A DNA stretch of 64,000 nt from Flavobacterium franklandianum (lineage in GTDB: Bacteria; Bacteroidota; Bacteroidia; Flavobacteriales; Flavobacteriaceae): assembly GCF_007097365.1 (NCBI RefSeq), contig NZ_VJZR01000015.1, positions 1 to 64,000 of the forward strand, in the 5' to 3' direction. The translations under genes were made by a program, and so were the position numbers. This document shows positions 36,767 through 64,000 of this stretch, piece by piece. The notes under the pieces were generated by a model. The model saw only the letters and a program-made list of their open reading frames with translations, was not told the DNA's origin and did not search any database. The stretch's first letter is position 1, and each line of letters begins with the position of its first letter.

Positions 36767-37004
36767 AAGATTTTTGATTATAGATTAACAATTCTTGACC
36801 CGAGTCCCAGCCTGCGGACGAACTGGCGAAGCATTTTAAATTTTTGTATAAAGAAAATTGTTTCGTTTTCAGCGACTAGCAAATTTGCTCCCGAAACTTC
36901 GGGACTAAAATTTGCAATCTAAAATCACCAATCATTCCCTTTTAACTAAAAATTAATATATGTTTGGCTTCAGTTCTTTTTAAAATAATGTAATTTTAAA
37001 AAAT
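36767..37004. repeat. Intergenic region with palindromic repeat pieces
   Basis: Contains a complement of the gcttcgcc/ctcgggtca repeat (about 36796-36828) and, at 36888-36905, the palindrome ctcccgaaacttcgggac nested inside gcaaattt...aaatttgc. The same palindrome with one change lies inside purC at 63960-63977. Confidence 0.65.
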
Positions 37005-63553: not shown

Positions 63554-64000
63554 ATGAACACAATAACTACAACGAATTTCAATTTTCCGAATCAAAAATC
63601 AGTGTATCGAGGCAAAGTAAGGGAAGTTTACAATATCAACGACGAACTTTTGGTTATGGTAGCCACCGATAGGCTTTCGGCTTTTGATGTTGTTTTACCA
63701 AAGGGAATTCCGTACAAAGGACAAATCCTAAACCAAATTGCTACCAAATTTATGGAACTGACCCAAGATATTGTTCCAAATTGGTTAATTGCAACTCCAG
63801 ATCCAAATGTGGCTGTTGGTCATTTATGTACACCTTTTAAAGTAGAAATGGTGATTCGTGGATATGTTTCAGGTCACGCAGCTCGAGAATATGCAGCGGG
63901 AAAAAGACAAATTTGTGGAGTTACAATGGCCGAAGGATTAAAGGAAAACGATAAATTCCCTCCCGAAGCTTCGGGACCGATCATTACGCCAACCACCAAA
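63554..64000 (+). CDS. purC: SAICAR synthetase, 5' part
   Basis: Makes SAICAR from CAIR and aspartate in purine synthesis. 149 codons are present and the frame is open at the window edge. Visible: [61 protein letters not shown], then GLKENDKFP. At 63960-63977 the palindrome ctcccgaagcttcgggac is read in frame as PPEASG between KFP and PIITPTTK; the family normally has a single residue there (as in FPxPIxTP), so about four residues appear inserted. Confidence 0.93.

Follow-up and report, generated by a model that had tools for sequence, protein, structure and literature searches.

A palindrome within purC belongs to a dispersed 16-bp unit

The purC gene of Flavobacterium franklandianum carries a short palindromic sequence within its reading frame, which raises the question of what this sequence is and how it entered the gene. 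We addressed it in a window of 64,000 nucleotides (positions 1 to 64,000 of contig NZ_VJZR01000015.1), where the features concerned are as follows:

63554..64000, + strand: purC (SAICAR synthetase), truncated at the end of the window; match to NF009251 at 494 bits (cut-off 371)
63961..63976, no strand assigned: 16-bp element, TCCCGAAGCTTCGGGA, inside purC, read (C)CT-CCC-GAA-GCT-TCG-GGA = P-E-A-S-G
36889..36904, no strand assigned: 16-bp element, variant TCCCGAAACTTCGGGA, between two genes

As a preliminary description of this DNA had reported, the 18-mer in purC (ctcccgaagcttcgggac at 63960-63977) and that between genes (ctcccgaaacttcgggac at 36888-36905) match at 17 of 18 positions, with 1 difference. 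With up to 3 mismatches allowed, the window contained 4 matches compared to a shuffle mean of 0.01, and none of 100 shuffles reached 4. The expectation that the 18-mer recurs beyond these two copies was borne out for its 16-bp core, as the exact 16-mer TCCCGAARCTTCGGGA occupied 17 places (24 strand-matches, 10 + 14) in the 3.8-Mb genome, with 0 matches for a reversed-pattern control. All 24 strand-matches of the 14-mer CCCGAARCTTCGGG, at 17 places, extended to TCCCGAARCTTCGGGA. Because the 14-mer and 16-mer counts are equal, the repeated unit in this genome is 16 bp, TCCCGA-NNNN-TCGGGA, and the C at either end of the 18-mer belongs to the flank. A looser pattern, TCCCGA-N{2,30}-TCGGGA, was found at 42 places in the same genome versus 3 for its control, with 32 of the 42 being 16 bp long, and at 269 places in genome G121 versus 5 for the control. 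The central four bases, read on either strand, were AGCT in 66 and AACT in 55 of 151 unique copies (those gathered from the compared loci, excluding viral ones), and the exact forms of the palindrome contain no stop codon in any frame.

We also observed a separate repeat-like word, GCCTGCGGACGAACTGGCG, at 36810-36828, approximately 60 bp from the intergenic copy. It is single in the window and, among 446 loci, was present only in the two covering these positions; words of this kind occur in Flavobacterium.

The purC copy adds four residues to the enzyme

The purC open reading frame (ORF) beginning at 63554 encodes 149 amino acids within the window, and the whole ORF is intact with 319 amino acids (L018:1093-2052). 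Around the element, PurC reads K-F-P-[P-E-A-S-G]-P-I-I-T-P, with five residues in place of the single one (often E) found in relatives, for a net gain of four. The in-frame insert had been given as PPEASG; extra residues are indeed present where the family has one, but that count includes a proline that relatives share. A strict motif search recognized PurC in 35 of 81 loci, and the fuller count is an anchor-based comparison with 80 relatives, in which the net length was +12 nt relative to 78 and +9 nt relative to 2. Relatives without the palindrome therefore do not share the extra residues, an outcome that would have undermined the proposed insertion: 78 of 80 lack four and 2 of 80 lack three. 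At the empty site, 4 nt are replaced, as in ttccc[GGAA]cc of L060, and in an HMMER alignment the solved PurC sequences 3r9r and 6yvq lack exactly these four residues.

The only other PurC with extra residues, from L051, carries the same palindrome. In a structural model of this protein (mean pLDDT of 90.6), residues 137 to 141 lie in a short turn or helical segment flanked by two short strands, with pLDDT values of 83 to 85 for the block. Our PurC tree placed the F. franklandianum protein among Flavobacterium. Since the L051 protein is 89% identical to it and also groups with Flavobacterium rows, the record label of L051, Bifidobacterium breve, is probably wrong. Another metagenome-assembled genome (MAG), L067, labeled Sphingobacterium thalpophilum, has a PurC that falls among Flavobacteriaceae, and on these sequence placements L067 and L051 are probable mislabeled MAG records.

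Copies within genes are read through in all three frames

The palindrome is not peculiar to purC. Following the proposal in the preliminary description to count copies genome-wide and list those in coding sequences with their frames, we inspected 33 copies in the F. franklandianum genome (17 exact, 14 of 15 other 16-bp forms with C34:128710 left out, and L145 and L222, which have an arm mismatch), and 15 were inside long ORFs, all readable through and with all three frames used. These genes encode PurC, an epimerase-like protein, an acyl-CoA-ligase-like protein (L008), a TonB receptor, LeuRS, the L145 product, ArgRS, an M1 peptidase, IleRS, a dihydroorotase-like PyrC, the L214 product, TatD, orotidine-phosphate decarboxylase (PyrF), an ATP-grasp-like protein (L219), and a DUF2400 protein. 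The labels for L008 and L219 are weak matches below curated cut-offs, and the mevalonate, kynureninase, Sir2, GT9, PurL, and E2 labels come from Pfam matches. Translated readings were of PEASG and SRSFG types, with PTLRD in IleRS.

Different in-frame inserts from other short repeats were also observed, namely SPLTPKGGI in LeuRS of G014 (L203) and inserts of ERSEA or ERSAA types in PyrF of G010 and G007 (L271 and L272). Several short-repeat families may behave like the 16-bp palindrome.

About 4 bp of target are replaced by 16 bp

To compare lengths, we measured the distance between conserved anchors for 23 coding copies (15 from F. franklandianum and 8 from other genomes) against relatives, after excluding 8 relatives with the pattern in the segment and 7 without anchors. 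A gain of 12 nt was the commonest net length in 20 of the 23 copies and was found in 174 of 207 copy-relative pairs. The exceptions were the epimerase-like gene (+27 in 7 relatives, +12 in 2, and 0 in 1), diphosphomevalonate decarboxylase (+33 in 4), and L145, whose only comparison was with its own sequence rather than with an independent relative. Among the zero net lengths, some belong to relatives in which that position holds a worn copy, for example L164 for TonB and L191 for the epimerase-like gene.

When the spacer of the empty site was left free from 0 to 11 nt and all loci were scanned for the best ungapped alignment to the 24 nt flanking either side, each of the 21 coding copies tried gave a best-fitting spacer of 4 nt, corresponding to 16 nt in and a net +12 nt. 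In LeuRS of G015, for instance, ggtca-[16]-ggaatg compares to an empty ggtca-TAAT-ggaatg. An intergenic copy in G188 likewise reads ttgcg-[16]-ttgcg versus an empty ttgcg-AACT-ttgcg. Across six intergenic copies, the nucleotides lost numbered 4, 4, 5 (with 4 as the runner-up), 3, 5, and 5; L258 and L002, two of the six, are situated within tandem repeats of 7 nt, and L212 was ambiguous and not counted. The loss of exactly 4 nt is thus rejected as an invariant, as intergenic copies lose 3, 4, or 5. Because these losses vary, filtering by reading frame accounts at least in part for the constancy of +12 in genes. From these alignments, about 4 bp are swapped for 16, with the frame likely selecting 4-nt events within genes. 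The intergenic losses of 3 to 5 nt are too variable to name a precise chemistry. We also rejected the central four bases as captured target, since the centers are mostly AGCT or AACT and the replaced bases are different ones (for example, GATC, AACC, AATC, and TCAC).

Target preference and recurrence at the same nucleotide

Considering both sides of the 151 copies, position -3 was a pyrimidine in 252 of 302 sides and position -1 was T in only 10 of 302, with A..C as the commonest neighbor pair (65 of 151 copies). In the closest filled and empty pairs, the empty relative mostly had the same neighbors, so that the flank bias mainly reflects target preference. Direct repeats of at least 3 nt flanked 37 of 151 copies compared to about 20 expected, a mild excess. 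Most copies (132 of 151) were without a paired flanking base, and pairing of -1 with +1 was observed 19 times versus 49 expected. Since the flanks do not pair, insertion into preexisting hairpin loops is rejected as a general rule.

In two genes, the element was present at the same nucleotide in nonsister genomes. For LeuRS in G000 and G015 and for TonB in G000 and G005, a tree with carriers in one clade was rejected (p-AU of 0.0205 and 0.0156, respectively), with the groups for both tests having been named after the trait was seen. The simplest reading of these trees is that a preferred site was hit more than once; an old loss or a local transfer could also account for the same-site copies. 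For PurC, the two carriers were together in 0% of 200 bootstrap trees and no starred branch forces their separation, and a single origin of both copies is possible from these sequences.

Distribution across genomes

With one genome compared per species, the exact palindrome was detected in 91 of 199 genomes of the genus Flavobacterium, at 1 to 143 strand-matches in carriers. At the level of the order, it was present in 31 of 296 genomes, many of them from the genus Flavobacterium, and the top count outside the genus was 14 strand-matches (G221). With regard to a possible phage origin, a viral collection included 22 stretches with the palindrome. Scoring across 398 genomes took 2 candidates per genome and is therefore not a census. 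A search of an open-access library returned no report of this palindrome, including its three 14-letter forms.

Some copies lie in unusual contexts. In L014 (G000:C35:36703-39716), positions 1400-2340 contain tandem units of approximately 383 bp, each with an ORF for a GIY-YIG domain (PF01541) and a 3' tRNA-Phe fragment, adjoining an intact tRNA-Phe; the palindrome is in the T-arm of two of the tRNA-Phe fragments, where 5 tRNA bases are missing. A copy around position 1500 of L007 (G000:C11:138819-141832) is shortly downstream of tRNA-Cys, after ...ccggttc, a T-arm-like context as in the tRNA-Phe fragments, and G007 (L027) has three copies in the same context, 104 bp apart. On G000:C23, a contig of 9.6 kb that contains small ORFs, two copies about 0.9 kb apart (L011 and L012, at 3.4 and 4.3 kb) have near-identical surroundings that are suggestive of a cassette array. 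Three copies at the ends of contigs C6, C18, and C35 (L005, L010, and L016) share one repeated stem-loop-like stretch, which is probably a repeat that breaks the assembly. Finally, L397 (G588) has an 18-bp form, TCCCGATAGCTATCGGGA, at the site of L239 and L375, where G075 has a 16-bp form and G530 a 15-bp form.

Possible origins of the palindrome

The comparisons above show that the palindrome in purC is a copy of a unit dispersed in Flavobacterium, and that copies come in by replacement rather than by plain insertion. In the mechanism that we consider likely, about 4 bp (3 to 5) of a preferred target would be lost in a break and the 16-bp palindrome joined in, changing the length by +11 to +13 bp. 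The copies surviving in genes would be those of +12 at a spot that the protein tolerates, and the absence of stop codons from every frame of both strands of the palindrome would permit their survival; frame-breaking copies would persist outside genes. An insertion enzyme may spread the palindrome, or the repair of breaks may capture it, and it may be selfish rather than useful to its host. We favor a small selfish element moved by a putative enzyme. More tentatively, and at somewhat less than even confidence, the palindrome could be a mobile element that is active or was so until recently, and one of the shortest that can be conceived, for which a putative site-choosing enzyme swaps about 4 bp of target and repeatedly adds four residues to proteins, in some cases at an identical nucleotide in separate species. 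Against mobility, no donor enzyme was found and no movement was seen with one genome per species. The main rival is capture by end-joining, in which a cellular nuclease would cut preferred sites, a few bases would be trimmed, and repair would trap an abundant, self-annealing 16-bp fragment with no dedicated enzyme. The self-complementarity of the unit and the loss of 3 to 5 nt outside genes with no constant value, which resembles trimming, are consistent with such capture, but the strong flank bias and reuse of the same nucleotide point to a site-choosing step and such a fragment has no known source, so that we regard end-joining capture as rather unlikely.

The remaining explanations are taken in descending order of probability. 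The palindrome could represent two fused inverted ends and hence the footprint of a larger, departed transposon, but target bases are replaced without duplication at the sites seen, and no larger element bearing these ends was encountered among the loci inspected, making a footprint very unlikely. A short palindrome in high copy recalls REP elements moved by a RAYT (Y1) transposase, and Y1 genes are common, with matches in 144 of 199 genus genomes and 6 matches in the F. franklandianum genome. The association is weak, however, with the palindrome occurring in 71 of the 144 genomes that have a Y1 match versus 20 of the 55 that have none (Fisher p of 0.11). These 20 carriers without a PF01797 match indicate that a Y1 transposase is dispensable in the genomes in their present state. 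Carriers without a match include G004 (46 strand-matches), G054 (26), and G029 (11) and, by elimination from the listing, G090, G128, and G188, whereas G185, G112, G022, and G099 have 8 to 9 Y1 matches and zero copies. We therefore find movement by RAYT highly doubtful. One fixed word in many copies with biased flanks might also suggest a functional site, such as a protein-binding or uptake sequence whose enrichment is due to selection and not to movement. We give this idea very little credence, since copies enter as length changes (+12) and not as substitutions, so that the empty-site comparisons largely refute it, and since all three frames are used and strand-matches range from 0 to 143 between species of one genus. 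The least probable explanation is local template switching, by which an imperfect hairpin in the vicinity would be made perfect. Its product would be a palindrome, and a few copies are within longer inverted repeats (for example, L045 and L269), but the same letters occur at unrelated sites and the unpaired flanks largely refute it.

The 16-bp palindrome contributes small insertions to proteins. The simplicity of the rule, 16 bp in and about 4 bp out, makes the insertion chemistry testable. Because the same site apparently can be hit twice, caution is warranted in using indels of this kind as markers of shared ancestry.

Comparison with known palindromic elements

Small palindromes and hairpin elements of fungal mitochondria are very short and mobile; they are organellar, and their sequence is unrelated to the Flavobacterium palindrome. 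Among bacterial systems, REP elements are described in the available text of PMC3733652 as short palindromes of 20 to 40 bp in high copy, with a GTAG or CGTC tag and with some copies within genes. The Flavobacterium palindrome is similar in its high copy number and presence in genes, but its unit measures 16 bp, a Y1 match is absent from several of the genomes with many copies, and no terminal GTAG or CGTC tag was found in the flank composition of its copies. Miniature elements of the MITE type, as covered in the accessible portions of PMC2229807 and PMC10969869, are likewise nonautonomous repeats with inverted symmetry that are sometimes fused in frame. MITEs are larger and most duplicate their target, whereas at the best empty sites of the Flavobacterium palindrome we found no target-site duplication and a loss of 3 to 5 nt instead.

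The closest resemblance drawn in the preliminary description was to the Rickettsia palindromic elements (RPEs). In the available parts of PMC2229807 and PMC10969869, RPEs are palindromic repeats found between genes and in frame in conserved protein genes, where they are readable and apparently tolerated, and the former gives their length as 105 to 146 bp. This likeness holds for how the two work, as the Flavobacterium palindrome is also both intergenic and in frame within conserved protein genes. It does not extend to membership in the RPE family: RPEs comprise several families with a long stem-loop in an obligate intracellular alphaproteobacterium, whereas the Flavobacterium unit is a fixed 16-bp word that takes the place of about 4 bp. 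The accessible text of a review (PMC10969869) draws its examples of palindromes lying in frame in bacterial genes chiefly from Rickettsia, and the element described here is a far smaller one, residing in Flavobacterium tRNA synthetases and in enzymes of purine and pyrimidine synthesis.
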